Part shown: one piece after another, positions 1,409-32,207 of the stretch
Layout of the letters: each line of letters opens with the position of its first letter
How positions within the stretch are numbered: position 1 is the first letter of the stretch
IMG/VR virus record: IMGVR_UViG_3300037200_000089
Coordinates: 1 to 41,776 of that record
DNA from: a virus
Direction: 5' to 3' (one strand)
DNA length: 41,776 nucleotides
The notes under the pieces: model-generated
Told to the model about the DNA's origin: nothing
The model's database searches: none
What the model saw: the letters and a program-made list of their open reading frames with translations, nothing else
Position numbers and translations under genes: made by a program

Positions 1409-1531
1409 ATGAATCAGTGGAAATCGACACGAAATACCCCCACCACCCGGGTAAGTATTAGTTTGGACCCCGTCGACCGACTGGATCAGGCCACACAACC
1501 AGAGATCGCGGACGACGACCCCGACGAATGA
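1409..1531 (+). CDS. Tiny ORF overlapping terL start
   Basis: This 40-residue frame begins MNQWKSTRNTPTTRVSISLD and ends in an acidic tail (ADDDPDE). It ends with TGA inside the terL start (ATGA overlap), the same junction used by most gene pairs here. The RVSISLDPVDRLD stretch recalls the beta-strand and first helix of ribbon-helix-helix proteins, but the protein is too short for a whole fold. It may be a leader peptide coupling terL translation. TTGACC lies 15 nt before its ATG. The preceding 140 bp (1268-1408) hold only a loose ACTGGCC/GGCCAGT inverted repeat with a long loop. Confidence 0.4.
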   Translation: MNQWKSTRNTPTTRVSISLDPVDRLDQATQPEIADDDPDE

Positions 1532-3791: not shown

Positions 3792-3958
3792 ACAAGATCC
3801 TGCGCGAAATCACAGATCACCTCGACAGCATCCAGTGCCGGGTGGACATCCGGCTGCATTTTGGTGCAATCGAGGTCTCCGGCGGGACGTACGCGGACCG
3901 GCTGATAGCCAGAGCGGAGATTCGCAAGTACGGGCTGGAGTGCGAACTTGCGCCTTGA
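3788..3958 (+). CDS. Small hypothetical protein
   Basis: This 56-residue frame starts in an ATGA overlap with the preceding stop. Its stop lies inside the -35-like element of the next gene's promoter. The sequence mixes helix and strand (ILREITDHLDS, then VDIRLHFGAIEVSG) and ends with a basic helix. No motif recognised. Support comes from the overlap geometry shared with neighbouring gene pairs and a normal amino-acid composition. Confidence 0.5.
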   Translation: MNKILREITDHLDSIQCRVDIRLHFGAIEVSGGTYADRLIARAEIRKYGLECELAP

Positions 3959-3981
3959 CTGATAGCCCGATTTGGCAAATC
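3955..3981 (+). promoter_or_regulatory. Phage promoter, N15-spacer class (TTGACT/CAAATC)
   Basis: TTGACT (3955-3960), 15 nt, then CAAATC (3976-3981). The ATG at 3991 is 36 nt from the first T. The geometry matches the perfect copies upstream of 26499, 27906, 32562 and 35357. There is no Shine-Dalgarno before 3991. Confidence 0.5.
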
Positions 3982-3990
3982 AGCCTTTAA

Positions 3991-5658
3991 ATGGCCACTC
4001 GCTACAACCGGAACACCAACACGAGCTTCGACGATGGGATTCCGCCTGCGGGCAATGCGCGGTACCAGAAAGGCCAGGTGACGACGGTGCCGGGGCCGAA
4101 CGGACCGGTGTACCCGAACGGGAACGGGAATCCACCCGGTGCGTTTCCCTCGCGGTTCGCCACGCCGGTCGCTCCCGCGCGCCGCGGGCTCGTGGATGCG
4201 ACGCGACCAGGGGCCGTTGCGCCGACGCCCGTCCAACCGTTCGGCAATCCGTCCGATGCGAATGCCGCACTTCTACAGGCTGGTGCGCCGGGATTCGGCA
4301 ACGGTAACGTGCCGGCGGGATTGACCGGATCGTTTTCGGCCACTGTGCCAGCGCGCAACGCGGCGGGGTATATCACGGACGCAGGAGCACAGGCGGCAGC
4401 AAATCGAGCGGCTGAAGCGAGAGCCCCATCCCGAAATCCCAATGCGCAGCCCACCGGACTGATTGCCTCGGCGCCCGTGCCCATTGACCAGCAACCGGAG
4501 GCGGTGCGCGGTTTACGGGGCACGACGATTCTGCCTGGCGGCGGATCGGTGACGATTGGCGGCCCGACGCCGAAAGGTATTGTCGGTGGAGCGCCGGACG
4601 TGGCAGCGGGGACCGGCCCGGGGATTTACGTCAACGGCGTGCTCCAAAACAAGCAGGCTGACGGCACGTTTGCCGCTGGGGGTCCAGGCGGTAACGCGCC
4701 GCCCGCATTCAAGGATGGATTCACCGTCGCTCCGGGCGTGCAGACGGCGCTCATCCAGAAATATCCCAGTCTGGCCGTGGCGGGTAGCCCGCAGAACAAA
4801 GCCTTTCTCTCCACCTTGGCCGCGAGCGGTAGCGATGGATCGGACGCTGCGGACATCGCGGACAAGCTTTTTGGCGGCAAGAACGAGGCGACGCTTCGAC
4901 CGGACATCGGTGCGACCAACTTCAAGCCGGTCCCAACTTCATCTCAGCCGCAAGCGTTGACGTCTGACGCGAAAGCGTTCACTGGCGCTCCACTCGCGCT
5001 AAATACGGGAGCGGCGACGCCTTTGCCGACTGAAGGCGATCCGTTTGCCACGCGGCCATTGCCAGATTTAGCCAGCATCGCGCCGGTTGCTCCGAGTCCG
5101 GGTATGACCGCGCCACTGAGTCCGGGCGCGCAAGCCGCGCAGAACGCGAAAACCGCAGTAGGTAACGCCGCGAGCGCCGGGTATGGAGCGGTCGGCAACG
5201 CGCTGGGGTATGCAGCGGATTTTGCAAGTCAATTCGGGCTACACGGGATTGCGCCGGAACCCTTGACGCCGAGTGCGCCCACGGCGACTCCGCCCGTTGC
5301 ATCGCCTCCTCAGACGCCCGGTCTCGTGATGCCAACGCCCGGCAGTCCCGTGGCTGCCGCCGCGGCGAACGCGCAACCGAGTGCCGCTCCGGCCCAGCCC
5401 GCGACGAGCGCGCCGGTTGCGCCGGTCACAAATCCCGTTGCGGCGACAACTCCTGCCGCACCGCCGATTCCGCTTGCGCCCGATGGCTCCGCGCATCCGC
5501 TCATGCCGTTTACCGCGCCGAAGTTGGACAATGCGCTCCTGACGAGCGGCGGCACTGGCGCGACGACGGCAACTCCGAATCCCGACGACGACGAGCTAAA
5601 GCGCCGACAGGCCGCCGCGAGCACCGCGGGCCTTGTCACATCTGGTGCCGGTCAGTAA
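3991..5658 (+). CDS. Low-complexity Ala/Pro/Gly-rich protein, probably virion-associated
   Basis: This 555-residue protein is rich in Ala, Pro, Gly, Thr and Asn, with no recognisable enzyme motif. Residues 1-100 are Asn/Pro/Gly-rich. The middle has short folded-looking segments (KDGFTVAPGVQTALIQKYPS at about 240-260). The last 200 residues are Pro/Ala-rich and end in an acidic-basic cap (PDDDELKRRQAAAS). Codon use is ordinary for this genome (GCG, CCG), unlike the overprinted linkers in the next gene. It is read from an N15-class promoter without Shine-Dalgarno and ends 21 nt before the giant gene, so the two may work together. It could be a linker or adaptor for the polyvalent protein. Confidence 0.6.
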   Translation: MATRYNRNTNTSFDDGIPPAGNARYQKGQVTTVPGPNGPVYPNGNGNPPGAFPSRFATPVAPARRGLVDATRPGAVAPTPVQPFGNPSDANAALLQAGAPGFGNGNVPAGLTGSFSATVPARNAAGYITDAGAQAAANRAAEARAPSRNPNAQPTGLIASAPVPIDQQPEAVRGLRGTTILPGGGSVTIGGPTPKGIVGGAPDVAAGTGPGIYVNGVLQNKQADGTFAAGGPGGNAPPAFKDGFTVAPGVQTALIQKYPSLAVAGSPQNKAFLSTLAASGSDGSDAADIADKLFGGKNEATLRPDIGATNFKPVPTSSQPQALTSDAKAFTGAPLALNTGAATPLPTEGDPFATRPLPDLASIAPVAPSPGMTAPLSPGAQAAQNAKTAVGNAASAGYGAVGNALGYAADFASQFGLHGIAPEPLTPSAPTATPPVASPPQTPGLVMPTPGSPVAAAAANAQPSAAPAQPATSAPVAPVTNPVAATTPAAPPIPLAPDGSAHPLMPFTAPKLDNALLTSGGTGATTATPNPDDDELKRRQAAASTAGLVTSGAGQ

Positions 5659-5679
5659 TCTTGCGGTCACACCGCCAGA

Positions 5680-8600
5680 ATGGACCCGTTTGGAATCAAT
5701 CAGCCGGATCAGGCGAGCGTGCCGGGATTGCCATCGGCACCGGATCAGACTGGGCAAGAAACAGCGCCGTCGCCCACATTCCCCGCTCAAACTGCGACGC
5801 AGGAGCAATTACCCGCCCCGACACCACCAGCGGTTCAACCCCTTTCGTCTGGCCTGATTAGGGGCGTGCGTCCGGTTCGGGCGGGGGACTTGCAATACCA
5901 GCCCGGTCCCGCAGCGACTGACAGTCTGAGCACGGACACTCAAGTACCCAATCAGGGAGTTCTTTCGGCTGATCCGCTTGGGTCATTGCGTTCAGCCGGG
6001 CAATCTCCCGCTCAGCCCGCTCCCGTCGCCGCGTCTGTCCTCGGGCTTGAAGCGTCAGCGAATGGTTCCGGCGTCGCTCCCGCTCAACCAGGATTGTCAG
6101 CAGGCGCACAGCCGTACAGTCCGGACGGGAGGATGCCTGCTTTAGCAACTCCTGGTGCTCTCGCAGGAGCCAGCAATACCGGCGCTCAGCAACCCGCCGG
6201 GACAATCGCTCCTGACGCTGGCGCGTCCCCATCCACGTCCCCATCCACACCCCCCACAGAACAGCCGTCAACACAATTAACGCAACCAACGATTCCGGGT
6301 ATGCCATCGGCCCAGCCTGCCGGTTCCGCTGGCGCCGTTCAAGGAAAACCGTACTCGGTCGATGCGGGCGGCAATATCCAGTTTGCGCCCGGCAAAATTG
6401 CGGACGGATTGCTCGCGGCGCATCAGGATGGCGCGATAACGAGCCAGCAGATCAAGGACTTGCTGCCGAAGGCCGTGGACGCGGACAATGCAGCGGCAGC
6501 GCAGCAGACGGCGCTCAGCAATGCGGCGCAAGACCCGTTGTCATGGGAGAAAGCACTGGCGCATGGAGCAGCCAAAGGCGGATCATTCATCGCGGGCGCT
6601 CTGCCGGCGGCGGCTTTAGCGGCTCCCCTGGGCGCTGCGACATTTGGCGTCGCCCCGGTCGTGGCCGGTCTCGTCGGTGGCCTTATCAGCGAGCACGCAG
6701 CCAGCGCGGTCGGCACGGAACTTGCCAAGCACTCGGACACGATCAAATCGTTCGCGGACGCAGCACAGGCGCATCCGTACTACGACGCGGCGGGAAATCT
6801 GGTGAGCCTCGCGATCCCCGGTGTCGGCGCTGCGCAGAATCTGCTGGAGGCTGGCGGCGTGGCGGCGGAGGACGCGGCCAAGGCAGGGCTATCGTACGGC
6901 GGCCAGATTGGCGCGGGGATTAAAGCCGTTGCGCCAACCCTCGCCAAAGGTGCCGGTGCTGGCGCGCTGTTCGAGACCTACGGGCGGCAACCGGTGGAGA
7001 ACGTGTTCAACTCTGGGCTCGATGCGCTAGGCATATCGCACGACCCGAGCCAGGCACCGACCGCCGGGAGTGTGGCGCAGAATGCGCTGCTCGGCGCGAT
7101 GCTGGCCGGAGAAGGCGTTAAAACTTCCGACCTGCTCAACGTGGACATATCCGGCGTGATGCGGCGCGGTGCGGAACGTGAGAACGCAGGGATTCCGCTT
7201 GATGCGAAGTTCAACGACTCGCGGCAGGACGCAGTCAATCCTCCGCTCTCGCCAGCGGAACAGGCGCTCTATCAAAAGGGCAAGATTGCCGTCGTCAAAG
7301 ACGTGCAGAACGGCGGCGTGGCCGCGCAGGCTATTGCGGGGATGACCGGGCGGCAGGCGACCGATGCGGGCGGCAGGCCGATTGCGACGACGGTTGATCT
7401 TGCGCCGAAGGATGCGGGTGGACCCGCAACTCCGGGCGCGCCCGGTCCCGGTGCCGGTCCAGCGCTTCCTGGGCTTCCGTCCATACCGTCTCCAGTAGAT
7501 CAGCAGTCAGCTTCTGGTCTCGCCGGAACCAGCGCTCAAGCGCCAGGCGCTTCCTCCGCTCCCGGCGCCACAAAGCAAGCGTCGCCACAAACAGCGCCGA
7601 CAGGATCGTCGCAATCATCCATCGAGCCTGTCATCACGACGCCATCGGGTCCAGCCATTTCGCCGCCGGCCGATGTGGACGATGCGCGCACACGGCTGAC
7701 TCGCATCGGTTCGCCTACGGCCTTCGACTCGCTTCGAAGCATCGCCAAACTTCCAGCCGCCCAGCAACTTCCGGCGTATCAGGACGCGATTTCGGCAGAG
7801 GGCGGGAAGGTCGCGCAGAATCTTCCATCAGCATTTAGCCCGGGCGATACGCTCAGTGCCGGGCCGCAGCGCTTCAGCGTCTTGGGCGGCGACGAGACAA
7901 CGACGTTCGTCAGCGATCCGTCTCGTCCGGGCGCTCCTGCTCGACGGGTGGCGACGGCTGATTTACAGGCGGATGTGGTGAACGGGCGGCTGGCGTACGA
8001 GGCGGTTCCGGCAGCAGCAACCCCAGTAGGCGCCACGCAGAAGAGTACCCCATCTCCTTCCCACGCACCGAATGAGTCAACGTTAGTCTCGAAGCCATCC
8101 GCCGATCAAACACCCGCCACGCCGCAGAGTCAATCCAATGAGCCGAACACGAAAACGCAAGGAGCATCTGGAGCGCTTCCCGCGCAAGCCAAAGCGCCAC
8201 AACCACCAGAAAGCGCCGCCCGTACCAATGGACCCGTCATTGCGGGTCTCGACGCTCCGGTGCGGGAAGGTAGCGCGACAGGCCCGGCGGGAACTGCAAA
8301 GCCCGCTGCCGATGCTGGGAGCGCTGGGGCCGGGGCAACAGGCGATGCTGGACGGGTTGAAGCCGGTGCTGGACCCGTAGCGACCCGCGTACCGTTCGCG
8401 CCCGAGACCGGCACGCTCGGCGTCCCGCGCGATCAAATGCCGCAGGTTGCGAGCGAGCACCGGGGTGCGATGGCGAACTTCCTCTCCGCGCGCGGCATGG
8501 ACGTCTCGGCGGGCGAGATGCTGCCGGGGCAACTAAAGCCGTCGCAGGCCGACTACAACCCGGGCAAAGTCGCCAAGGCCGGCGAGATCCGGATGGCAGG

Positions 8601-11600
8601 CGAGGATAACCCGCGCCGCATCCTCGTGTCCAACGATGGCTACGTGATCGACGGCCATCATCAGTGGCTAGATCGGCTGCAAAACGATCCGCACGAGTTC
8701 ATGCCGGTCTTGAAGATTGATGCGCCCGCCGCTGAGATTCTCAAGCAAATCCACGAGTTCCCGAGCGCCGGGATGGAAAAGGCGCCGGACATTTCGCCAA
8801 TCCCGGGCTTGCCGGTGTCTAAAGATGCTGCCGAAAAGAAGTCCACGCGCCAACTACTGGAGGAGTTCATGGGCCGCGTTGCGCAGCGTCATGAAGACGA
8901 GGCGTCAGGCCAAGCCGTGTTGGACCATTTGGAGGACAATGATATTTCGCCGCAGACGGTCGTGAAGACGTTCTGGGCCAAGACGTACGACAATCTGCCG
9001 GACCATATCCAGAAACGCTTCCAACGCATGATAACGGCAGTCACGGGATTTACTCCTGGCGACCCGATCGCCAGCCAGAGGCAGCCCGATGGCAGCGTGA
9101 CTACTATTACTGCAAGGAACTGGCAGGACACCTTCGACCCGCCCGCCGCAGCCAGCAATGCCCGCGATCTTGAGGGCATAGAGCGAGGGTTGATCGTCAA
9201 CATGTATCTTGCGAATCAGGGCATGGGGGCATTAAAGCCAGCGTCAGCACCTGGGCCAACACCACTCTTGCCAGGAAAGCCTGAGCCTGCTAAAAAGACC
9301 CCAGATGAACCGGCCACCAAAAGCGACACACGCACAGAGGCAAGCGGTGTACGCCCGGATGAAGTCAGTCCGGCACAGCCCGGTGGGCGCGGCGGTGCAG
9401 ACATCGACCGCCCCGCAACTCCCGCAGCCGGAGGGCGAAAGCCAGCCCGCACCGACATTCGCGGGCGCGTCCGCTTTAGCGAATCCGATGCAACCCGCGT
9501 AGTCGAGGCCGCGCACGCCGAGCACTCATCGCTTGGCGAGGATTCGCCGACACTGGCCGCCAAGACGTTCGAGGCTCCGGCCCGGGTCGAAGCGCCGCGG
9601 CGCACAAAGGCGCAGCAGGTTCTCAACGACAGCGGGACGGGCTTCAAGGAGATTGCGCCCGACAGCGATCGCTTGGCTGCGGTTCGCACATGGCTCGCCG
9701 ATCAGCGCATGGGCGGCCTGAATCCGACGCCGGGAGACGTGGCGCGCGCCAAGCAGATTCCGCCGGCCACGGCAAAGCGGTTGATCCAGGACCAGCGCCA
9801 GGCTGAGTTCGAGGCGCGAGCGAACGCGAAGGGTTCCGGCATCAAGTACAACGACGCTACGCGCGAGATCAGTTACGACCCGGATCAGTTCGCGCAGTCA
9901 GTGCAGAATATCAACGACCACGGCGGAGATGGCGAAGGCTGGGCGCGCGCGAGCGTGCTCGAGGAACACAAGCACGACCTTGGGACGCAGGCCGCTACGT
10001 TCGCCGGCGGCATCGACAAGGTGCGCGACGAGATCGCAGCCGCGTTGCCGCAAGAGAGCTTCGACGCGATGCGGTCAGTCTACAGGACAATTCACCGGCC
10101 CGAGCATTTGAGCGACGAGCAGGCGGCCACGCACGAGCGCGAACTGATGGCCGAGGAATACATGGCCCGGTACGCGATGCGCCAGCAGGGCGAGAAGCTG
10201 CCCGAGGAGTTCTGGCAGCCGCCGGAGAAGGTTGCGCCGTTGCTCAAAGCTCTGGACGGTCCCCAGCCCGCGGCGGTCTTGGCTCAGTACGCCCGGATGG
10301 AGCACCTCGCGCCAGCCGCGAAGCCAGCGCCATCGTCGCCATCCGTTGCCACACCAGCGAGCGAACGTAAGCAAGCGGAGACTCCGACTCCTGCTGCATT
10401 ACCACGTCCGCCGCCGCGTCAAGCTGACGAGCCAGAGGTTGCAAGCCATAAAGAAAAGCCTGTGCCTGAGAAAAAGCAACGGACCTTCCGCATCCCGTAC
10501 GCGCCGGTTGGCGATCAGCCGGACGTGATCGACTACATTGTTGACCAAGGCGGCATCCAAGGCAGCACTGCGGCCAAGCGCATCGCGAAGGGCAAGGGCA
10601 TTATCGGCGGCGCTGCGGGAGACTACGACGACAGACCGAATCTGAAGGGCATTTACCAGTCTGCGGTTTTCGGCGGGCGCATGGCTGCGGACCAGATGGC
10701 TGAATTGCTCTACCGCGAGCACGCAATAGGCGACGGGACCATTGGCGCAATGTACGCGGCCATCGATCAGGCGATGCAGTCGCGCAAGAGCGGGCGCGTG
10801 GAGAATGCCCGGCAGGCGTTGGAGCAGAAACAAGCCGAACGCTTCCATCGCGACACCGGCACGGAGAAGAAGGGTGACAAGGTTGTTCACGCCGGCAACC
10901 TTGCCGTGGGCGACACGATCACGGTCGAAGGCCAGAAGCTCAAGGTGATCGATGTGGACCCGGAGAGTCTGGATGTCACGCTCGAAGACCACAGCGAATA
11001 TGGAGTTCAGAGGATCGCGAGCGGGAGCGTCATCTACGTCCAGAAGATGCAAAGGGCCACGAAACCCGTGGTCGAATCGCCGGTGTCGCCCGACAAGCTG
11101 ACTGAGCGCGAACAGTTCCGAAACTGGTTACACGTAGCGGCGGACAGCCCGCAAAAACTTCGCGCAATCGATGTTGACCGCGTGATGAGTACGGCGCGAG
11201 ACCCGGCACAGGTTGAGCGTTTGCGGTCCTACCTGCTCTCCGAAGCGCTTGGTGCTGAAGCTAAGGCGGAAGTGCGAAACTGGAAGCCTGACGACAATGT
11301 CCCCACCCTTCGCCGCAATGAAAATCAGGGCGACCTACTGTCCAAGCAAACCGAAGACCTGACGCTAACGGGCGAGACCGGGACCGACCACGAGAAAGTG
11401 CAACGCGCAAAAGAGGCAGCGGCTAAAGCAACTGCTGATGCCAAGGCCAAGCAGGACCGCGAGCAAATGGCGCTCCCGGGAACGACGGAAACACCTTTTA
11501 GCCCCGCGCTCAAAGAGCAGGCCCGCAAGGCGGGGATTTACGGCAAGATCGACGCACCGGCCAAACCGCAGATTACCTACGAGCAATTCGCGGCTCAGTA

Positions 11601-14600
11601 CCGCGACGCGTTCAAGCAGGGCAACAAGTACGATCCGAGGCTCCACGTCGGCTCGCAACACTTCAGTGACAAGATGGCCGCACTTGCCGACGCACATCCC
11701 GAATGGCTCGCGCGTCTGGAAGCGGAGGAAGAAGGGAAGGCTCCCACCCTCAAACCTGAATCATCCCCGCAGAAGAGGCCCAGTCAAAGGGTTGAGGACT
11801 TTAAGCGATTGCTTGCTGCTGGTTATTCACTGGTGCGCGGAGCTTGGTTCCGTCCTGGAGGCGGTGAAGTTGGGAATATGGAGGCGGCATTAGCTCACCT
11901 GAAAGCTGCCGAGGGCAAGTCGGCGGACGACATTCCAACCCCAGAGGTAAGCGTTAGAAAATCGTCCGAGAAGGAAGTGGGCGCCGGAAAGCATCCATTT
12001 CAAGCATTCGCGAACACGAATCAGGGCGGTCGGCTTTCCGTGTCTGGGGGCGGACCTTCTGAAGAAGATGCAAGGGCGGACGCAATCCGAGAGTTTCGTC
12101 AGCAATGGAAGCGGCGCGCCGATTCACGGGTTGCCACTACCCCCAAGGCCGATCCCGAGAATTTCTTCAATCGGTCCAAGCCGGATTTCATCGGCCAGAA
12201 CCGCGCTGGAAATAACGTGTTCGAGGACAAGCGAGGCGTTCGGTCCGTGGACGAAAACGGTGCGCGATCAACTCAATCCGTTGGCTTGCGTCCCGGCGGC
12301 GGGTTCAACATCGACAGCCCGGAGAAACTGTATCGCGCAGGTCATCATGAGTACTTGACCGCAGATGAGCACGGCACGTTCGACCAGATCATCGGTCCTC
12401 CAAAAGCCGCACTCGTAGAGGCCAAGACTCCGGCAACCGCGCCGATCAGCCAGAGCGACATGCAAAAAGGCGCGAGCGCTCTTGCCGATTGGGTGGGGCT
12501 ACGACTAGCCAAACAGCAGCCGTTCAGCCTGCAACAACTATACGACGATGCGGACATGGCTTTCGGAGGAACGCAGGCGAGCGGCGCCTACTCGTTCAAG
12601 GACGCGACCGATTCGCTAGAGCTGGCGGTCAACCGGTGGATCATCGCGCGGCGCGGATTAACCAACCCTGAAGGCTCCGACGATGTAGCTACGGCGCGAC
12701 GCACCATCCAAGACCTGCAAACGCTCCTGCTCGACAATCTTCCAACCCAAGGCCGCCAGCGTAATGAGGAGATGGAGAATTTCCAGCAGTTCTCGACACC
12801 GCCCACGCACGCCTTCCTTGCTAACTGGGTGGCCAATCTGAAGCCCGGAGACACCATGCTCGAACCATCGGCGGGCATTGGTGGACTGGCTGCGTTCGCC
12901 AAAGCGGCCGGCGCACAGGTGGTCGTCAACGAACTGTCGCCGCGGCGCCTGCAATTCCTGAAGACACTGCCTTTCGACCGGTTCTTTAACGAGGACGCAG
13001 AACAGATCAATAACATCCTGCCCGCTGACGTTCGCCCTACGGTCGTCGTGATGAACCCGCCATTTTCGCAAGCCGGCGACCGGATGGGCGGCAAAACCGA
13101 CCTGATGGTTGGCGCTCGCCATATCGAGGCCGCTCTCAAGCGATTGCAACCAGGCGGCAGGCTCGTGGCAATCGTGGGCCGCGGCATGGCGATGGACGCG
13201 CCGACGTTCCGCGAATGGTGGAAGCGCATCGCCGCGAGCAATCAGGTGCGCGCCAACATCGAAATTTCCGGCGACGAGTACAAAAAGTACGGCACCACCT
13301 TCGACAACCGCTTGCTGGTGATCGACAAAGTTGCGCCGGTTGTCGGACAGGAACTGGTCGGTGGGTCCGTCCAGAAGGTTGACGAACTGCCCGCGCTGCT
13401 CCAAGGTGTACGTGATGGGCGCCCAAGCACAGCAAGAATCTCCGATCAACATCCGGGCGCGCCAGCTCCTGCTCCAAGCGAAGTTCGACCCGATTCACGG
13501 CCAGCCAGCAGCGCTCCAAGTGCTACGCCTCGCCCTGGACGAACCGGACAAGGTGAAAGTTCGGCCCGACCTGGCGGAGCAAGCGGAAGCAGAAGTCCAA
13601 GCGCTCCTGTTGATGCCCCAGAACAAAGCCCAGAGCCTACTGAATCGCGCCGGCCTGACAGCGAGCAGGCTCGTGCAGACCAAGACGCTCTCGGAGTTCG
13701 CCCAGGAGCTTCTGGAGCAACTCCTGTCGGTGGTACAGGAAAACCAGCAACCAGCGCCCGAACAGGTTTACTGACGCCGGTCGATGCGGCTGACGTCAGC
13801 ACGCACGAAAAGATCGCCCACGACAAGGACACGCCGGACACTGTTTTCGACACGTATCAGCCGACCGTAAAGGTTGCTGGCGCAAAGGCCCACCCGGCGC
13901 CGTTGGCTGAGAGTTCGGCGATGGCGTCGATCAATCCGCCGGCCACGACGTACAAGCCGAAGATCGACCGCAAGTTGATTGCCGATGGGAGGCTGTCGGA
14001 CGCGCAACTCGAAAACATCGTCCTGGCAGGCGAGTCGCATTCCAAGTTATTGCCCGATGGCAGCCGCCGCGGGTTTTTCATCGGAGACGGTACGGGTGTC
14101 GGAAAGGGCCGTGAGATCGCCGGAACCCTGATGGACAACATGAACCAAGGCCGAAAGAAAGCGGTCTGGATTTCGTACAACTCGAGTCTTTTCAAAGACG
14201 CGCAGCGGGACATGGAAGGCGTAGGACTGGGTAAGGATCAACTCATTGACCATTCCAAAATAAAGAGTGGAGATATCATTGGACAAAAAGAGGGCGTCTT
14301 GTTTTCCACATATTCCACACTAGCGCGAACGACGAGCCAAGGAATTACCGCGCAAGAGAGGGATCGAGGATATCTATCGCCGGGAGATGTCGTCATGCCG
14401 GTGAACCCTTTTTCCTCGAATCCAGATGACGGCATAGATAATCCCAAGGTCCACTTTAGGATTACCGGAAGGAAAAGGGTGTTGCGCATTGGAGGCTCAG
14501 ACGCTGCTGCCTATCCAGCGGTGAACGTGGTGACGGGCGAAGCGGTGAGTCTCATGCACGCCGAGATCAATCACAATCGCTATGTCAGCCGTACAAAGGA

Positions 14601-17600
14601 GATTGCGGCGAGCCGGCTGGATCAGATCGTGAAGTGGCTGGGTCCAGACTTCGACGGCGTGATTGCGTTCGATGAGGCGCACTTGATGGGTAATGCAGTA
14701 TCCATCCGTGGCGCGCGCGGCATGAAGAAGCCGAGCCAGCGGGCGCTCGCGGGGGTTGAACTGCAAAAGGCGCTCCCGAAGGCGCGCATCCTTTACGTGT
14801 CGGCGACCGGTGCAACGGAGGTGTCGAATCTCTCCTACGCTGAACGGCTTGGCCTTTGGGGGCCGGGAACCGCATTTGAAGGCGGCAAAGGTCCATTTAT
14901 TTCTTCGATTGAAGGCGCCGGCGTGGCGGCGATGGAGATGGTTGCGCGTGATCTCAAGGCAATGGGGCTCTATATGGCCCGGTCCATATCCTACCACGGC
15001 GTTACATTCGAGCGATTGGAGCACAAGCTAAGCACCGATCAGACCGAAATTTACGACGAACTAGCCGGCGGTTGGCAGACTGTTCTGGCCAACATGGACT
15101 CGGCCCTGGGGGTGACCGGGCAGGCCAAGAATGGTAACGCAGTATCGCAAGCACGCAGCCAGTTCTGGGGAACGCACCAGCGGTTTTTCAGCCAGGTGAT
15201 GACGGCGATGCAGATGCCGAGTGTGATTGACAAGTTGGAGGAAGACCTGAAGGCCGGTTCGTCGCCGGTCATTCAACTGACCAATACAAACGAGGCGCAA
15301 CTCGCGCGCATCCTGACAGAAAAACAGAAGCAGGCCGAAGAAGATGACCAGGAAGTTGATCTTGAAACCCTGGACTTTACGCCACGGCAGGGGCTCATGG
15401 ATTACATCCAGCGCGGGTTCCCAACCCAACAGTACGAAGAATACACGGACGAGGAAGGCAATGTGCGCACGCGTCCGGCTAAAGACAGCGAGGGAAATCC
15501 AATCCAGAACGCCGAGGCCGTCGCGATGCGCGACCAGATGCTCGACAGCCTGGCATCCCTTCGAGTTCCTGAGAACCCGCTCGACATGATTATAAATCAC
15601 TTCGGCACAGACAATGTGGCGGAGGTCACTGGGCGCACCCGGCGTGTCGTAAAGAAAAAGGACAAGAACGGCGTGGAAAGGATGGTGCAAGAGCCGTGGG
15701 GAAAGACTCATAGCGAGGCCGACGCGGATTCCTTCCAAGCAGACAAAAAGCGAATCCTGGTGTTCTCTGCGGCCGGCGGAACCGGCAAGAGTTATCACGC
15801 CGACCTGAGCGCCAAGAATCAGCGCTTGCGCCAGCATTACATTCTCCAAAGCGGTTGGCGTGCGGACGGCGCGGTGCAAGGGCTGGGCCGAACCCATCGA
15901 TCCAACCAGGCGCAGCCACCCAATTACAGGTTGGTTTCTACCAATCTGAACGCACAGAAGCGGTTCATCTCCACTATCGCGCGTCGGATGGAAAGCCTGG
16001 GAGCTTTAACCAAGGGTCAGCGTGACAGCTCCAGCCAGGGAATGTTCTCGGCGGCGGACAACCTGGAGACTGAATACTCGCGGGACGCCATCCGCGATTT
16101 ATACGGAGACATCGCGCGGGATCACGTCCCTGGCGTGGATGCAGCGGACTTCCAGGCGCAAATGGGACTGCTTCTGAGTGCGGAACCCGACGTCAAGACG
16201 TTCCTGAACCGAATGCTCAACCTTAAGGTCGCCGACATGAATCGCGTCTGGGATGAGTTTTTTGAGCGGATGACTGACCGCGTGGAAATGGCTCGTCAGC
16301 GCGGCGAGCTGGATACCGGCATGGAGACAATCCGGGCGCTTAACGCTGAAGTCACCCAAAAGAGCCTATTGCACACCGATGCTGGGACGGGCGCAAAAAC
16401 GGAGTATCAGCGGGTTCAACTGACGCAGCCCGCGCGAGTAATGACCGTCAATGAGATGCTCAAGCGCGGGGCGAAGAGCGGGTTTGTACGCAACAGGAAA
16501 AGCGGCATGGTCTGGGCAAATCTGGGCGAGCGCAACGTCACGGCCAAGAGCGGCAAGGTTGAATTGCGCCTGATGTTGATGAACCACAAGTACGGCGTCA
16601 GCGACGCACTGCCTTACGACGTCAGCGAGTATTCCGATTCCAAGTACGAGCCCGTTACTTCCGATGCTGCGAAGCCTTTGATTCAAGAGGCGATTGACCG
16701 GACGCCAAAGACCTACGACGAGACCGCGCACATGATTACCGGGGCGCTCCTGCCCATCTGGGCTCGACTCAAGGGTGCTGGATCAGTTCAGCGCATCACG
16801 TTGGATAACGGCGAGCGGATTCTTGGCCGTCGCGAGAGTGAAGAGACAATCGGACCCTTGCTGCGAGACTTCCAGGTTGCACAACAGAACGCCGCAGTCA
16901 CGCCAGAGCGGGTTATTGAACATCTTTTAGCCAATGGGGGGCGAGTGCGGCTGGCGAACGGGACCACTATTACGCGCCGGTCCGTATACCAGGATCGCCG
17001 GTTGGAATTGCAAAACTTGAAGGTCGACCCGCGCGCGCTGACGCCGCTGGGAATGCAGAGCGAGCGCATAGGTTATGAAAGCCGCTACTTCATGCCAGAG
17101 GATAAGGCTGCGGCCATTCTCGCCCGCGTCATGCTCAATAACCCGGTCGTTGAGGGTATGTCGGGCGGCAACGAACTGCGCGCATCAATGCCGATCTTCG
17201 GTTCGACGTTCGACCAGGTCGCCGACGAATACGCGGCCCGCGGGTCCAAAGACCTTGTGGCTGCCGGATACGACGCGGCGCACACGAAAGCGGAGCTGGC
17301 CGGCGAGCAGGTTGCTTCGTCGATCCGGCAGGACCTGCCCGACAAATCGGACCGCGAGGCGATGCCGTTCGTCATCGAGGCCGGGGGCGACCCGCCGAAG
17401 CTTCTGGACTTCCGCGCGAAGGTCGCGGCGAGTAAGGATGCAAAGCTATCCAAGAAGTACGTGCCGGTCATCGATCACGCGATTTCCAACTTCCCGCGCC
17501 TTCAGGCTGCCCGCGCGAATCACGACAAGATCATGGCGGATAACCTGGCCGAACTGCGGGCGGCCGGCGTTGACGTGGGCGAGGTCATAGACTACGTGAC

Positions 17601-19878
17601 GCGCAAGCTCGGCCTGCCCGATGCGGTCAAAGACCTGCTGCCCAATCCGCTGTTTTCGATGGGAACGGGCAATGCCGGAGGATCCCGCTACTTCGCCAAG
17701 GGCCGCGTGTTTGAGTCCTTGGCCGATGCAATCGAGGCCGGATACCCGCCCAAGAGCACGGACCTGGCCGACCTGGACCGGCACCGGATCAGCGCGGCAA
17801 CGCGAATCCTGGAGCACAAGGCGTTCATCAATGCGCTCAAGGCCACGCCTTCGCCTACCGATGGAAAGCCGATCGTCGGCAAGTTCGAGCAGCGAAAGGT
17901 TCTGAGCGGCGAGACCGAGCGCGTGACGCCGAAGGGGTACACGAGCGTCCGCACGACCGCAGGCGAAGTGCCGATTCACGATCAGTTCGCCCATCTTTTT
18001 AAAGACCTGTACGGGGACAGCGCTGTGCGGCGGGTCGCGGCGTTCCGGGCGCTCTTGAAGGCGGCTGCAACGGTCAAGGTCTACACGCTGTTTGGCGACA
18101 CGTTCCACATTGGCCGGCAGCTTTACAAGATGGCGACCGGCGGCGGCGGCCTGCCTTTCACGATGGTCAACGGCAAGCCACAGGTGAATATCCGCAACGG
18201 TCTGGCGCTGATCGAGCGCACCGATGCCGATAACGCGCGGGCGGTCGCCAGCGGCGAGATCACGCAGCGCGAGGCGGATTACGCGCGGGATAATCGCCCG
18301 CAGTTCGAGGAATTGGTCAACGAAGGGCTAAACGTGGGCCGCGTGGCGGACAATTTGGTCCAGCAGGCGCACGCTCACATCCCGGGGATGCAATGGGTTA
18401 ACGACTGGATTTTCTCGAAGCTCTCGCGGTCGGCGATGGTCCAGACGGCGCTGGTGAACTACCAGCGCAATCTCAAGCAGTTCCCCGAGCGCAGCCAGCA
18501 GGAGAACGCGCGCCAGACGGCCAAGGAGATGAACGAGCTATTCGGCAACCTGCAAAATCAGGGGTTGTTCAAAAACAAGACGTTTCAGGACATCGCGCGT
18601 TTGGTTTTTCTGGCGCCGCAATGGGCGGAAAGCCAGTTGCGTTACGAGGGCCGAGCCTACGGGCAGTTCGGGCGCGCGGCCTATGACGCGGTGCGCGGAG
18701 TGCCTCCGGCTGGCGGCGGCGGCGGTAAGGGACCACCAGGACCGCCCGGCGGCCCGAACGGTGCGCCGATTGGCCCGCAGGACGACGCCAATGTTCCACG
18801 CGGAACGCGGGCGCGGCGGTTGCGCCTTGGCAACGCGGCTCGAGCAATGGCGGTTGGATTCACGAGCCTGTTCCTGGCAAATCAAGTCATCAACTGGCTG
18901 TCGCGCAAGCAGTTTACTTGGGACAACGAAGAGGACGGACACAAGCTCGACGCCTTCATTCCCGGCGGCAAACGTGGCTTCTGGTTCGATCCCTTCGAGA
19001 TCGCGGGCGAGTACGCGCACGCGGCGTTCAAGTACGCAGCCCAGCACGAGGACCCCGTGGACGTGGCGACGCACATCCTCAGCAACAAACTCTCTCCGAT
19101 TGGCCGCGGCGTGAAGGACGCGCTGACGGGACGCGATTACGCCGGGCGCCCATTCTTGAGCAACACGGACCGGTTTCGCGAGGCCGCGGTAGACGCCCTG
19201 CCATCGCCGATACCATTGGGGTCGGTCATGGAGAAAGACCCGCGTGCGCCGCTTGGGTATCGCCTGAGTCGCCAGCCTGGCAGCGTGGAAAAGCAGTTGC
19301 TCCAATCGTTCGGCGCAAAGGTGTCCTACGCGCAGTCGCCCCGCTCTCAGATGTTCGCGCTCGCCCAACCGTTCCGGGCTGACAAGGTGGGCACGGATTC
19401 GGCGGGCGAATACACAGCCCTCCGGGCCGCATTGGACAACGACGAAGAAAAATCTTCGCAGGCCGAGGTGCAATGGCTGCTGGGCCGGGGCAAGAGTATT
19501 CCACAGATCGAACGCGCGGTGAACATACAGACCGACCGGCGCGACGGGAGCAAGTACGTGAGGCCTGAGATGTTCGCCGGGAGCGCCGACCGCGAGCAGG
19601 AGTTCGTGAAGTCACTCTCGGCCGGTGACGCCAAGCTCTACGCGCAGGCCCAGCAGGACAACGTCGATAACGCGGTGAAATTCCTGACGTACACAAACGA
19701 CCTGCTCTCGACCAACGCCGACGCCGCCAAACTCGCGCGGATAAACGGCGGCGCGGCCGATGCGGCGAAGGCGCAGGCCAAGAGCATCAAGACTGCCGCG
19801 CCACCGCGCGTCCCGGTAGCCCCCGCGCCCGCAATGGCCGCATCAGGGCCGACGTTTGCGACAGCGTTCGGACGGTGA
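5680..19878 (+). CDS. Giant polyvalent protein: ParB-like, zincin-like, N6-adenine MTase, Strawberry-notch-like helicase
   Basis: This 4732-residue protein begins with a Pro/Ala-rich region (1-215) and a hydrophobic Ala/Gly stretch at about 299-340. The ParB-like motif YVIDGHHQW is at 988-996. A zincin-like segment has EEHKH at 1428-1432, where HExxH would be expected, so the first His is missing; MAEEY follows downstream. A DNA methyltransferase has LEPSAGIGG at 2394-2402 and NPPFS at 2459-2463 (N6-adenine type). The SF2 helicase has GDGTGVGK at 2802-2809, DEAH at 2998-3001 and QGLGRTHRSNQ at 3400-3410, diagnostic of the Strawberry-notch family. About 1300 helical residues follow, with a possible membrane segment near 4390-4410. 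Such architectures are described as polyvalent proteins of phages and conjugative elements, thought to be delivered with the DNA. It is the longest gene by far and several linkers are overprinted. Confidence 0.9.
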   Translation: MDPFGINQPDQASVPGLPSAPDQTGQETAPSPTFPAQTATQEQLPAPTPPAVQPLSSGLIRGVRPVRAGDLQYQPGPAATDSLSTDTQVPNQGVLSADPLGSLRSAGQSPAQPAPVAASVLGLEASANGSGVAPAQPGLSAGAQPYSPDGRMPALATPGALAGASNTGAQQPAGTIAPDAGASPSTSPSTPPTEQPSTQLTQPTIPGMPSAQPAGSAGAVQGKPYSVDAGGNIQFAPGKIADGLLAAHQDGAITSQQIKDLLPKAVDADNAAAAQQTALSNAAQDPLSWEKALAHGAAKGGSFIAGALPAAALAAPLGAATFGVAPVVAGLVGGLISEHAASAVGTELAKHSDTIKSFADAAQAHPYYDAAGNLVSLAIPGVGAAQNLLEAGGVAAEDAAKAGLSYGGQIGAGIKAVAPTLAKGAGAGALFETYGRQPVENVFNSGLDALGISHDPSQAPTAGSVAQNALLGAMLAGEGVKTSDLLNVDISGVMRRGAERENAGIPLDAKFNDSRQDAVNPPLSPAEQALYQKGKIAVVKDVQNGGVAAQAIAGMTGRQATDAGGRPIATTVDLAPKDAGGPATPGAPGPGAGPALPGLPSIPSPVDQQSASGLAGTSAQAPGASSAPGATKQASPQTAPTGSSQSSIEPVITTPSGPAISPPADVDDARTRLTRIGSPTAFDSLRSIAKLPAAQQLPAYQDAISAEGGKVAQNLPSAFSPGDTLSAGPQRFSVLGGDETTTFVSDPSRPGAPARRVATADLQADVVNGRLAYEAVPAAATPVGATQKSTPSPSHAPNESTLVSKPSADQTPATPQSQSNEPNTKTQGASGALPAQAKAPQPPESAARTNGPVIAGLDAPVREGSATGPAGTAKPAADAGSAGAGATGDAGRVEAGAGPVATRVPFAPETGTLGVPRDQMPQVASEHRGAMANFLSARGMDVSAGEMLPGQLKPSQADYNPGKVAKAGEIRMAGEDNPRRILVSNDGYVIDGHHQWLDRLQNDPHEFMPVLKIDAPAAEILKQIHEFPSAGMEKAPDISPIPGLPVSKDAAEKKSTRQLLEEFMGRVAQRHEDEASGQAVLDHLEDNDISPQTVVKTFWAKTYDNLPDHIQKRFQRMITAVTGFTPGDPIASQRQPDGSVTTITARNWQDTFDPPAAASNARDLEGIERGLIVNMYLANQGMGALKPASAPGPTPLLPGKPEPAKKTPDEPATKSDTRTEASGVRPDEVSPAQPGGRGGADIDRPATPAAGGRKPARTDIRGRVRFSESDATRVVEAAHAEHSSLGEDSPTLAAKTFEAPARVEAPRRTKAQQVLNDSGTGFKEIAPDSDRLAAVRTWLADQRMGGLNPTPGDVARAKQIPPATAKRLIQDQRQAEFEARANAKGSGIKYNDATREISYDPDQFAQSVQNINDHGGDGEGWARASVLEEHKHDLGTQAATFAGGIDKVRDEIAAALPQESFDAMRSVYRTIHRPEHLSDEQAATHERELMAEEYMARYAMRQQGEKLPEEFWQPPEKVAPLLKALDGPQPAAVLAQYARMEHLAPAAKPAPSSPSVATPASERKQAETPTPAALPRPPPRQADEPEVASHKEKPVPEKKQRTFRIPYAPVGDQPDVIDYIVDQGGIQGSTAAKRIAKGKGIIGGAAGDYDDRPNLKGIYQSAVFGGRMAADQMAELLYREHAIGDGTIGAMYAAIDQAMQSRKSGRVENARQALEQKQAERFHRDTGTEKKGDKVVHAGNLAVGDTITVEGQKLKVIDVDPESLDVTLEDHSEYGVQRIASGSVIYVQKMQRATKPVVESPVSPDKLTEREQFRNWLHVAADSPQKLRAIDVDRVMSTARDPAQVERLRSYLLSEALGAEAKAEVRNWKPDDNVPTLRRNENQGDLLSKQTEDLTLTGETGTDHEKVQRAKEAAAKATADAKAKQDREQMALPGTTETPFSPALKEQARKAGIYGKIDAPAKPQITYEQFAAQYRDAFKQGNKYDPRLHVGSQHFSDKMAALADAHPEWLARLEAEEEGKAPTLKPESSPQKRPSQRVEDFKRLLAAGYSLVRGAWFRPGGGEVGNMEAALAHLKAAEGKSADDIPTPEVSVRKSSEKEVGAGKHPFQAFANTNQGGRLSVSGGGPSEEDARADAIREFRQQWKRRADSRVATTPKADPENFFNRSKPDFIGQNRAGNNVFEDKRGVRSVDENGARSTQSVGLRPGGGFNIDSPEKLYRAGHHEYLTADEHGTFDQIIGPPKAALVEAKTPATAPISQSDMQKGASALADWVGLRLAKQQPFSLQQLYDDADMAFGGTQASGAYSFKDATDSLELAVNRWIIARRGLTNPEGSDDVATARRTIQDLQTLLLDNLPTQGRQRNEEMENFQQFSTPPTHAFLANWVANLKPGDTMLEPSAGIGGLAAFAKAAGAQVVVNELSPRRLQFLKTLPFDRFFNEDAEQINNILPADVRPTVVVMNPPFSQAGDRMGGKTDLMVGARHIEAALKRLQPGGRLVAIVGRGMAMDAPTFREWWKRIAASNQVRANIEISGDEYKKYGTTFDNRLLVIDKVAPVVGQELVGGSVQKVDELPALLQGVRDGRPSTARISDQHPGAPAPAPSEVRPDSRPASSAPSATPRPGRTGQGESSARPGGASGSRSPSAPVDAPEQSPEPTESRRPDSEQARADQDALGVRPGASGATPVGGTGKPATSARTGLLTPVDAADVSTHEKIAHDKDTPDTVFDTYQPTVKVAGAKAHPAPLAESSAMASINPPATTYKPKIDRKLIADGRLSDAQLENIVLAGESHSKLLPDGSRRGFFIGDGTGVGKGREIAGTLMDNMNQGRKKAVWISYNSSLFKDAQRDMEGVGLGKDQLIDHSKIKSGDIIGQKEGVLFSTYSTLARTTSQGITAQERDRGYLSPGDVVMPVNPFSSNPDDGIDNPKVHFRITGRKRVLRIGGSDAAAYPAVNVVTGEAVSLMHAEINHNRYVSRTKEIAASRLDQIVKWLGPDFDGVIAFDEAHLMGNAVSIRGARGMKKPSQRALAGVELQKALPKARILYVSATGATEVSNLSYAERLGLWGPGTAFEGGKGPFISSIEGAGVAAMEMVARDLKAMGLYMARSISYHGVTFERLEHKLSTDQTEIYDELAGGWQTVLANMDSALGVTGQAKNGNAVSQARSQFWGTHQRFFSQVMTAMQMPSVIDKLEEDLKAGSSPVIQLTNTNEAQLARILTEKQKQAEEDDQEVDLETLDFTPRQGLMDYIQRGFPTQQYEEYTDEEGNVRTRPAKDSEGNPIQNAEAVAMRDQMLDSLASLRVPENPLDMIINHFGTDNVAEVTGRTRRVVKKKDKNGVERMVQEPWGKTHSEADADSFQADKKRILVFSAAGGTGKSYHADLSAKNQRLRQHYILQSGWRADGAVQGLGRTHRSNQAQPPNYRLVSTNLNAQKRFISTIARRMESLGALTKGQRDSSSQGMFSAADNLETEYSRDAIRDLYGDIARDHVPGVDAADFQAQMGLLLSAEPDVKTFLNRMLNLKVADMNRVWDEFFERMTDRVEMARQRGELDTGMETIRALNAEVTQKSLLHTDAGTGAKTEYQRVQLTQPARVMTVNEMLKRGAKSGFVRNRKSGMVWANLGERNVTAKSGKVELRLMLMNHKYGVSDALPYDVSEYSDSKYEPVTSDAAKPLIQEAIDRTPKTYDETAHMITGALLPIWARLKGAGSVQRITLDNGERILGRRESEETIGPLLRDFQVAQQNAAVTPERVIEHLLANGGRVRLANGTTITRRSVYQDRRLELQNLKVDPRALTPLGMQSERIGYESRYFMPEDKAAAILARVMLNNPVVEGMSGGNELRASMPIFGSTFDQVADEYAARGSKDLVAAGYDAAHTKAELAGEQVASSIRQDLPDKSDREAMPFVIEAGGDPPKLLDFRAKVAASKDAKLSKKYVPVIDHAISNFPRLQAARANHDKIMADNLAELRAAGVDVGEVIDYVTRKLGLPDAVKDLLPNPLFSMGTGNAGGSRYFAKGRVFESLADAIEAGYPPKSTDLADLDRHRISAATRILEHKAFINALKATPSPTDGKPIVGKFEQRKVLSGETERVTPKGYTSVRTTAGEVPIHDQFAHLFKDLYGDSAVRRVAAFRALLKAAATVKVYTLFGDTFHIGRQLYKMATGGGGLPFTMVNGKPQVNIRNGLALIERTDADNARAVASGEITQREADYARDNRPQFEELVNEGLNVGRVADNLVQQAHAHIPGMQWVNDWIFSKLSRSAMVQTALVNYQRNLKQFPERSQQENARQTAKEMNELFGNLQNQGLFKNKTFQDIARLVFLAPQWAESQLRYEGRAYGQFGRAAYDAVRGVPPAGGGGGKGPPGPPGGPNGAPIGPQDDANVPRGTRARRLRLGNAARAMAVGFTSLFLANQVINWLSRKQFTWDNEEDGHKLDAFIPGGKRGFWFDPFEIAGEYAHAAFKYAAQHEDPVDVATHILSNKLSPIGRGVKDALTGRDYAGRPFLSNTDRFREAAVDALPSPIPLGSVMEKDPRAPLGYRLSRQPGSVEKQLLQSFGAKVSYAQSPRSQMFALAQPFRADKVGTDSAGEYTALRAALDNDEEKSSQAEVQWLLGRGKSIPQIERAVNIQTDRRDGSKYVRPEMFAGSADREQEFVKSLSAGDAKLYAQAQQDNVDNAVKFLTYTNDLLSTNADAAKLARINGGAADAAKAQAKSIKTAAPPRVPVAPAPAMAASGPTFATAFGR
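5858..6307 (-). CDS. Possible antisense gene: one TM segment plus coiled coil (spanin-like shape)
   Basis: This 149-residue frame lies antisense to the first linker of the giant gene. It starts MAYPESLVALIVLTAVLWGV, a good single membrane segment, followed by a long basic/acidic helix (QERLSRRVAERR and later ERERRRNHSLTLQARGQTRR) and a CPCSDC cluster. This shape fits an inner-membrane spanin (Rz-like). AGG lies 8 nt before the ATG. Caution: in this antisense phase, Ala/Pro-rich sense codons automatically give CNG/GNG codons (Leu, Arg, Gln, Glu, Val), which look helical. No promoter is evident. Real expression is uncertain. Confidence 0.35.
   Translation of the reverse strand: MAYPESLVALIVLTAVLWGVWMGTWMGTRQRQERLSRRVAERRYCWLLREHQELLKQASSRPDCTAVRLLTILVERERRRNHSLTLQARGQTRRRERAEREIARLNAMTQADQPKELPDWVLECPCSDCQSLRDRAGIASPPPEPDARP
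7331..7618 (-). CDS. Possible antisense gene: TM segment plus basic helix
   Basis: This 95-residue frame lies antisense to the second Ala/Pro-rich linker of the giant gene. It begins MIATILSALFVATLALW, then RRERRKRLALERWF and a helical LTADLLETVWTEAQEALDRH. The last 35 residues are Pro/Ser/His-rich and less convincing. It is in the same antisense phase as the frame at 5858-6307 and has the same TM-then-helix design. Either the two are paralogous-looking membrane proteins or both are products of the codon-table effect on Ala/Pro-rich sense codons. A CAGGCTCGATGG context precedes the start. Confidence 0.28.
   Translation of the reverse strand: MIATILSALFVATLALWRRERRKRLALERWFRRDQKLTADLLETVWTEAQEALDRHRDRARPELRVHPHPSAQDQPSSQSACRPHRSPAARSSPQ
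8138..8380 (+). CDS. Possible overprinted gene: small basic protein (+1 frame)
   Basis: This 80-residue frame is nested in the third linker of the giant gene, in the +1 frame. It begins MSRTRKRKEHLERFPRKPKR and ends MLGALGPGQQAMLDGLKPVL. The nested frame uses codons typical of this genome (CTG, CGC, AAG, GCG, CCG). The giant-gene frame at the same place drifts to GCT, CCT, GGA and CAA. No Shine-Dalgarno is seen before the ATG. A highly basic small protein could bind nucleic acid, but no family is recognised. Less certain than the nested frame at 13415. Confidence 0.4.
   Translation: MSRTRKRKEHLERFPRKPKRHNHQKAPPVPMDPSLRVSTLRCGKVARQARRELQSPLPMLGALGPGQQAMLDGLKPVLDP
9305..9502 (+). CDS. Possible overprinted small gene (+1 frame)
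   Basis: This 65-residue frame is nested in another Ala/Pro-rich linker of the giant gene, in the same +1 phase as those at 8138 and 13415. It starts MNRPPKATHAQRQAVYARMK and becomes Pro/Gln/Ala-rich. Codon use in the nested frame is normal, but the host frame is not clearly distorted here. No Shine-Dalgarno. I list it because of its position and phase, with low confidence. Confidence 0.25.
   Translation: MNRPPKATHAQRQAVYARMKSVRHSPVGAAVQTSTAPQLPQPEGESQPAPTFAGASALANPMQPA
13415..13774 (+). CDS. Overprinted gene inside the giant gene (+1 frame), helical protein
   Basis: This 119-residue frame lies in the linker between the methyltransferase and helicase domains. AAGGTG (13402-13407) sits 7 nt before its ATG, a good Shine-Dalgarno. 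The product has a balanced composition and predicted amphipathic helices (INIRARQLLLQAKFDPIHGQ, DLAEQAEAEVQALLLMPQNK, TLSEFAQELLEQLLSVVQEN). Its codons are those of the rest of the genome (CTG, CTC, GCG, GAC, AAG, CAG). In the giant-gene frame the same bases give a Pro/Ala/Ser/Gly linker written with unusual GCT, CCT, CCA and GGA codons. That bias swap indicates the nested frame is the constrained one. Function unknown; a partner of the flanking methyltransferase or helicase is an inference. Confidence 0.65.
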   Translation: MGAQAQQESPINIRARQLLLQAKFDPIHGQPAALQVLRLALDEPDKVKVRPDLAEQAEAEVQALLLMPQNKAQSLLNRAGLTASRLVQTKTLSEFAQELLEQLLSVVQENQQPAPEQVY

Positions 19879-19881
19879 GGC

Positions 19882-19908
19882 TTGACGAATATCGCCAGCA
19901 CGCAATAG
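19882..19908 (+). promoter_or_regulatory. Phage promoter, N15-spacer class (TTGACG/CAATAG)
   Basis: TTGACG (19882-19887), 15 nt, CAATAG (19903-19908). The ATG at 19920 is 38 nt from the first T. It is preceded by GG and C as in the perfect copies (GGCTTGAC). It starts within 4 nt of the giant gene's stop codon. Confidence 0.45.
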
Positions 19909-19919
19909 CATCCGCACCA

Positions 19920-20195
19920 ATGCGCAGCGCGCTCGCCGACACGACCGACAGCCTGCCGCATGGGTATGCCAAAGGCATGAACGCCCGGCTGACCGAGGCG
20001 CTAAATAGACTGGACCCGGTGGGCCAGCGGATGCGCAAGCAGCGGAGCCCCGGCGTCCGGCACAAGGCGAACGTGATTCACGGGCTGGGCGAGATCGAGT
20101 TACTGCGGGAGTTGCTTCGTCGGGCGAGCGAGACGCGGAGGCGCAAGCTGACCCGCCAGCGCGTAGCGGCGCATCGGGAACGGAAGGCGACGTAG
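19920..20195 (+). CDS. Small charged helical protein, unrecognised
   Basis: This 91-residue protein is predicted to be helical and basic, ending RRRKLTRQRVAAHRERKAT. A GTG at 19875 overlapping the giant gene's stop (GTGA) would add 15 residues and is an alternative start. I prefer the ATG because it sits 38 nt from a promoter of the N15 class, like seven other genes here. No domain recognised. The basic C-terminus would suit contact with DNA or with the capsid interior. It converges with the minus-strand gene at 20233. Confidence 0.55.
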   Translation: MRSALADTTDSLPHGYAKGMNARLTEALNRLDPVGQRMRKQRSPGVRHKANVIHGLGEIELLRELLRRASETRRRKLTRQRVAAHRERKAT

Positions 20196-24965: not shown

Positions 24966-25004
24966 TTTGGTGACAGGCGACGCGCGGCGTGGTTGGATGG
25001 CGGG

Positions 25005-31993: not shown

Positions 31994-32207
31994 ATCGATC
32001 CGCACAACGCTCACGATGCAGGAGGCCGTTCACGAGATGGCGCTCGCAGGGATGACGCAAGGCAAGTTTCGCAGCTTGTCGCTTTACTTGGAGGACTTGG
32101 TGATCCGGCACGCCGATGCGCGCGCCAACCGATCCAACTACGCGGCAGCCCGCAAAAATAGCTTGTTGTGTGGTTCGGCGTCTGGTATTCGCAAAACAGC
32201 AGGGTAG
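31986..32207 (+). CDS. RHH (CopG/Arc)-like small DNA-binding protein
   Basis: This 73-residue protein has the pattern SIRTTLTMQEAVHEMALAGM, then KFRSLSLYLEDLVIRHAD, like the second helix of ribbon-helix-helix regulators (F-S-x-Y-x-x-x-L-I). It overlaps the stop of the acidic protein by 8 nt. Its own last ten bases are also the first ten bases of the tRNA at 32198. RHH proteins bind operators as dimers, so it may control the surrounding tRNA/portal region. The assignment rests on motif shape alone. Confidence 0.5.
   Translation: MSKSIRTTLTMQEAVHEMALAGMTQGKFRSLSLYLEDLVIRHADARANRSNYAAARKNSLLCGSASGIRKTAG

Follow-up and report, generated by a model that had tools for sequence, protein, structure and literature searches.

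How a virus makes use of a single gene that takes up about one third of the DNA recovered from it is the question raised by this locus. The gene (5680-19878, + strand) encodes a protein of 4732 aa and lies in the window, that is, the whole stretch of 41,776 b analysed in this study, which is the linear IMG/VR virus contig IMGVR_UViG_3300037200_000089 (62% GC) and is probably incomplete. No near DNA match to the record was found among 50,697 phage records, and no close relatives of the phage were found via its large terminase subunit (TerL), the C-terminal region of the giant or single-sequence helicase patterns. Judged by its sequence, the giant is a polyvalent protein organised around a DarB-like methylase-helicase dyad; it is another member of a kind already known, here equipped with a Strawberry-notch (Sbno) motor.

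An intact giant gene among late genes

The ORF of 4,732 aa is genuine and uninterrupted, starting with ATG and containing no internal stop. Given the composition of the window, a stop-free run of 4732 codons has a log10 P of about -63; codon-position GC is steady along the gene and gives no hint of a broken frame. The extreme size alone, in a record that is a metagenomic contig, might suggest that separate genes were fused by an assembly artefact. This is extremely improbable given the stop-free frame with its steady codon-position GC, the 58 complete single ORFs of like build in other viral contigs and the two cultured phages that carry giants of 4650 and 5391 aa.

The predicted location between the terminase and head genes was verified, all of the genes concerned being on the + strand. 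Upstream are the genes for the terminase small subunit (641-1267; phrog_4044, E=2.9e-24) and the terminase-like large subunit TerL (1528-3570; recognised by PHROG match and position), and downstream are those for a probable major capsid protein (22108-23790; phrog_334 E=5e-5, with Phage_capsid_3 below the Pfam cut-off) and then a portal protein of the SU10, short-tailed phage type (32562-35030; SU10_portal E=1.4e-11, phrog_1216). Given this SU10-type portal, the virus is probably short-tailed. The giant is thereby encoded among phage late or virion genes, a setting that marks polyvalent proteins.

Several other features of the window were observed. Directly upstream of the portal gene are tRNA-Met (32198-32276) and tRNA-Pro (32445-32516) genes, and a HAD-like hydrolase (24993-25568; Hydrolase_like E 2e-6) is encoded amid the structural genes. 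A 106-aa ORF (19875-20195) starts within the stop codon of the giant (GTGA overlap) and is perhaps translationally coupled to it. On the other side, separated from the giant by a gap of 21 bases, a P/A/G-rich low-complexity protein of 555 aa (3991-5658) gave no family match and resembles in composition the N-terminal 900 residues of the giant.

Domain organisation of the giant protein

Membership of the polyvalent class, as originally predicted, was borne out by the combination of unlike domains (ParB-like, methyltransferase and Sbno helicase) within one late-encoded polypeptide. Residues 1-900 (5680-8379, +) are mainly of low complexity, rich in P/A/G/S/T/Q, and gave no family match; a single hydrophobic stretch is found in this region at residues 314-336 (nt 6619-6687). 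The ParB-like motif that had been proposed proved to be a module of the F116 type (residues 906-1030; 8395-8769, +) with the ParB/sulfiredoxin-like core SNDGYVIDGHHQW, residues 906-1032 being matched by phrog_11358 and phrog_2859. This module was found in 440 phage records, the best matches being the F116 group, and its carriers include Burkholderia podovirus DC1 and many enterobacterial phages of 140-160 kb. It does not belong with the DdrB-like ParB family, as there was no Pfam match to ddrB-ParB (PF18763) and profile comparison was weak. In that weak profile alignment, Q994 lies opposite the conserved active-site arginine of DdrB-like ParB domains. The same glutamine is present in the copies of F116, DC1 and the viral contig L023, indeed in every copy aligned, so that it looks like a subfamily trait. 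The module probably serves to bind DNA or nucleotides rather than to act as a nuclease.

A degenerate zincin-like segment had also been proposed, and it could be upheld only as a motif-level impression (residues 1362-1502; 9763-10185, +). The sequence EEHKH (residues 1428-1432; nt 9961-9975) falls within a long predicted helix, a predicted beta hairpin preceding it and a helix containing ERELMAEEYMARY coming next. Such an order would be that of a zincin minus its first zinc ligand. HExxH occurs nowhere in the 4732 residues. The AF2 model of residues 1281-1534 was poor (pLDDT 54) and gave no significant Foldseek or other fold match, so a zincin fold is not established; an active zincin was rejected. 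No plasmid homologues of residues 1241-2287 were found.

The dyad itself is preceded by a conserved region that starts at residues 2287-2315 (12538-12624, +), an LPD36-like position in both viral and plasmid dyads. The stretch AFGGTQASGAY in front of the methyltransferase aligns in plasmids and phages, and Pfam scans gave no LPD36 match. Both halves of the dyad were confirmed with their motifs intact, in agreement with the original prediction of an N6-adenine methyltransferase and a Strawberry-notch-like helicase. The methyltransferase (residues 2316-2566; 12625-13377, +) contains STP (2372-2374), the motif I sequence EPSAGIG (2395-2401) and NPPF (2459-2462); the first and last of these correspond to the N-terminal TP motif and NPP(Y/F) of gamma-class adenine methyltransferases. 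Pfam MTS gave a weak match, and PHROG DNA-methyltransferase families gave clear ones at residues 2358-2551.

Lobe 1 of the helicase (AAA_34; residues 2720-3127; 13837-15060, +) carries Walker A around K2809, DEAH at 2998-3001 and SAT at 3041-3043, together with an insert of about 90 aa before the Walker B motif (residues 2890-2975; 14347-14604, +) that is missing from the plasmid dyads and from most viral ones. Lobe 2 (Helicase_C_4; residues 3299-3549; 15574-16326, +) carries motif VI, QGLGRTHR (3400-3407). The scores for AAA_34 (E=6.5e-110, 367 bits) and Helicase_C_4 (E=2.9e-80, 270 bits) far surpass the curated Pfam cut-offs of 27 and 30.5 bits, and the occurrence of the two together places the protein in the Strawberry-notch family; it also makes this a SWI2/SNF2-related SF2 helicase fused C-terminally. 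Unwinding of DNA, which had been suggested, is doubtful, because motors of the SWI2/SNF2 type are thought to move along double-stranded DNA without pulling its strands apart (PMC5512222). A search by sequence found no solved structure of the dyad, and comparison with defence systems gave a sole match, at the level of the methylase, to mad2 of MADS.

A winged HTH (SnoC) at the C-terminus is characteristic of Strawberry-notch helicases; in the giant, lobe 2 is followed by a conserved C-terminal dyad extension (residues 3550-3829; 16327-17166, +) that runs co-linearly with the Sbno proteins of plasmids and viruses. Since dyad homology thus extends to about residue 3830, the C-terminal stretch comprises about 900 residues (3830-4732; 17167-19875, +) instead of the roughly 1300 estimated earlier. 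It has no Pfam or PHROG match and is related only to the C-terminus of the giant of one viral contig, L069 (22% identity, E 1e-9), in which a lysozyme-like gene and small membrane-protein-like ORFs come after the giant gene (the small ORFs being read by eye). This is the place where relatives carry LPD38. That domain (PF18857) was not detected in the window's giant, with no Pfam match and an hhalign probability of 0.9%, though relatives, DC1 and Bacteroides phage BS-TP4 carry it. The AF2 model of the region had a pLDDT of 34.5. A function in the virion or in ejection is probable for this region.

Relatives in phages and plasmids

Dyad relatives are encoded by at least 362 IMG/VR viral contigs according to a profile scan, and the best 80 of these, being the top-scoring ones rather than a random sample, were retained. 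In nearly all of these 80, a single giant ORF contains the complete dyad. Fifty-eight of the ORFs are complete; their median length is 3,995 aa and their maximum 6160 aa, and 13 of the 58 exceed 4,732 aa; the window's giant is a typical member in size. The order ParB-methyltransferase-Sbno also recurs, in the uncultivated viral giants of L023 (5215 aa) and L029 (5333 aa), which have the F116-type ParB module as in the window, and, with another ParB domain, in BS-TP4. The unusual size and domain order originally suspected were therefore not substantiated, and neither a record size nor a unique order can be claimed. The dyads of L023 and L029 are 44-46% identical to that of the window, whereas their C-termini are unlike it by BLAST.

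Pfam domains carried by relatives include LPD38, ART-PolyVal, InPase, GGDEF, LPD1 and DUF6908, all but the last of which are polyvalent-protein domains of Iyer et al. (PMC5512222); in several relatives the LPD38 module, typical of phage polyvalent proteins, is C-terminal. Fifty viral records were surveyed for phage genes. Terminase_6N was present in 18 and the phrog_1216 portal in 20, so that 28 had one or the other and 22 had neither. In all 20 records with the portal, portal and giant share a strand, and in 16 of them the portal is upstream of the giant.

Active-site conservation, the absence of which had been named as counting against the original prediction, was clearly found. Counting only those relatives whose aligned row has letters at the position concerned, NPPF occurs in 163/163, the DExH residues in 168/168 and the motif VI residues Q3400, G3403, R3404 and R3407 in 167/167, against a mean match to the window of 45% over all dyad columns. 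K2809 is present in 71 of 75 viral rows, the local alignment being gappy there.

BS-TP4 was the only match when phage isolates were searched with the helicase. Its gp3 (PQ571277.1, 5391 aa) is likewise a single giant, adjoining the portal gene, in which a ParB-superfamily domain, methyltransferase, Sbno helicase and long C-terminus follow one another as in the window; the full order is ddrB-ParB, InPase, methyltransferase, Sbno helicase and LPD38. It differs from the window in the classical ddrB-ParB, the added InPase and the LPD38 C-terminus, and its helicase is only 23% identical. The DarB-like giants of the Lessievirus phages of Burkholderia (DC1 gp67, 4650 aa; JC1 gp69, 4515 aa; Bcep22 gp75) are also late gene products of similar length. 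In DC1 gp67, which consists of SLT, the ParB-like module, methyltransferase, SNF2-type helicase, LPD3 and LPD38, the ParB-like module is shared with the window (40% identity) and the order ParB-methyltransferase-SF2 helicase-C-terminus is alike. In contrast to the window, these giants have a helicase of the SNF2/ResIII rather than the Sbno type and possess SLT, LPD3 and LPD38, and their methyltransferase is remotely alike. Pseudomonas phage F116 p59 (2129 aa) has a ParB-like module 38% identical to that of the window and no match to the Sbno helicase.

The virion association of such proteins is documented for JC1 gp69 (4515 aa), the homologue of DC1 gp67, for which 51 unique peptides were obtained by mass spectrometry of CsCl-purified virions (PMC9144972); the closest giants so proven thus have an SNF2-type helicase, not Sbno. 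DarB of phage P1 (2255 aa), compared here through the literature only, has a predicted methyltransferase and helicase and is packaged into the capsid via an N-terminal signal (PMC9024508). It acts in antirestriction, being required against EcoB and EcoK (PMC9024508, PMC12810830), and the Dar proteins are ejected along with the DNA, which they protect (PMC12810830). One study found that plasmid-borne darB still conferred protection when it bore catalytic mutations or a stop codon, and ascribed this to plasmid-induced restriction alleviation, an artefact (PMC11109961). The methylase-helicase dyad was named in 2017 by Iyer et al., who predicted a DNA-protection mechanism and described DarB-like giants of the Strawberry-notch type only 'in a few instances' (PMC5512222).

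The helicase region was matched by 566 plasmids, and residues 2287-3830 can be aligned over their full length with proteobacterial plasmid methyltransferase-Sbno proteins at 40-48% identity over about 1540 residues. On conjugative plasmids of Methylotuvimicrobium, Methylomonas and Martelella the whole dyad is co-linear with the window but stands without the N- and C-terminal parts of the phage proteins; the copy from Methylotuvimicrobium continues past the dyad into other modules, and a Methylomonas example had been named by Iyer et al. in 2017 (PMC5512222). The short dyads of alphaproteobacterial plasmids are about 1450 aa long. In a quick tree of 69 dyads under a simple model, the window was placed among viral sequences and the plasmid dyads formed two groups nested among viral ones, one alphaproteobacterial/Azospirillum/Nostoc and the other gammaproteobacterial (Methylococcales and Thioflavicoccus). 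Mapped onto this tree, the labels virus and plasmid have to change twice, which indicates at least two exchanges, in either direction. Recent capture of the window's dyad from a plasmid, hinted at by plasmid helicases 55% identical to it, was rejected by the tree, the window lying among phage dyads.

The surroundings of the plasmid copies vary. On Azospirillum plasmid p7 (L009, 1-9976) the methyltransferase-Sbno gene is flanked by type I-E cas genes on one side and, on the other, by a restriction endonuclease that binds phosphorothioated DNA, and four alphaproteobacterial plasmids (L003, L010, L011 and L012) share a recurrent cassette of methyltransferase-Sbno, Toprim (primase-like) and then, in the annotated ones, DUF2493. 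On the Thioflavicoccus plasmid (L008, 4000-11000) the Sbno region is split over two ORFs (5420-9355 and 9030-10502), suggesting a frameshifted or decaying copy.

A putative role in DNA protection at entry

The preferred reading, with a probability of about two in three, is that the short-tailed phage encodes, in this giant, a polyvalent protein of the DarB-like kind which is packaged, ejected with the DNA and protects that DNA from restriction in cis. It is most likely packaged with the DNA, as suggested by its late-gene context and by analogy with JC1 gp69, which is present in virions (PMC9144972). The giant would be expressed with the late genes, packed into the capsid and, we infer, ejected into the new cell together with the genome. 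There the ATP-driven Sbno motor would move along the duplex as it arrives, while the fused N6-adenine methyltransferase may mark the incoming DNA and/or the bound complex may block restriction translocases. By marking, blocking or both, the genome would survive type I-like restriction. The presence of the same dyad on conjugative plasmids without virion genes fits a role in protecting DNA on transfer.

Two other roles have to be weighed against this. Certain phage proteins, among them the N4 vRNAP and P22-type ejection proteins, are packed into the virion and ejected. The giant might likewise be mainly a structural or ejection protein whose enzymes start replication or transcription rather than counter restriction, in keeping with its late position and its long low-complexity N-terminus with a hydrophobic stretch. 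As the giant of DC1 begins with a lytic transglycosylase (SLT) domain, such proteins can act in entry, and as the 41.8-kb record has no recognised replication genes, the helicase might serve replication. That record is probably incomplete, however, and the pairing of an adenine methyltransferase with a SWI2/SNF2-related motor, both with invariant active sites, is the DarB pattern; the plasmid dyads without virion genes also argue against this role, which is considered unlikely.

Alternatively, the giant could be a late modification enzyme, made during infection, that methylates the phage DNA ahead of its packaging and is itself absent from the virion. The plasmid dyads of about 1450 aa, having no virion part, must indeed work in the cell or by conjugative transfer. 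But viral copies have N- and C-extensions, typically of 1000-1600 residues, that are missing from those short plasmid dyads, several have the C-terminal LPD38 of phage polyvalent proteins, and the Lessievirus giant is present in virions (PMC9144972), all of which makes a purely intracellular enzyme quite improbable. Protection of the entering DNA by a packaged, DarB-like giant is thus the reading retained.

More tentatively, and with a good deal of doubt, these proteins may constitute a second lineage of DarB-like virion giants, one with Strawberry-notch motors, that is widespread in uncultivated short-tailed phages and has been exchanged more than once with conjugative plasmids; it would deliver a working, ATP-driven methylating machine that marks the genome at entry. 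No demonstration of entry-time methylation by any DarB-like protein was found in the literature. The dyad of about 1450 residues from alphaproteobacterial plasmids is a tractable form for biochemical tests. Strawberry-notch DarB-like giants are common in uncultivated phages and have invariant active sites, and their dyad is found in phages and in conjugative plasmids alike, each of which needs to protect its DNA on entry into a new cell.
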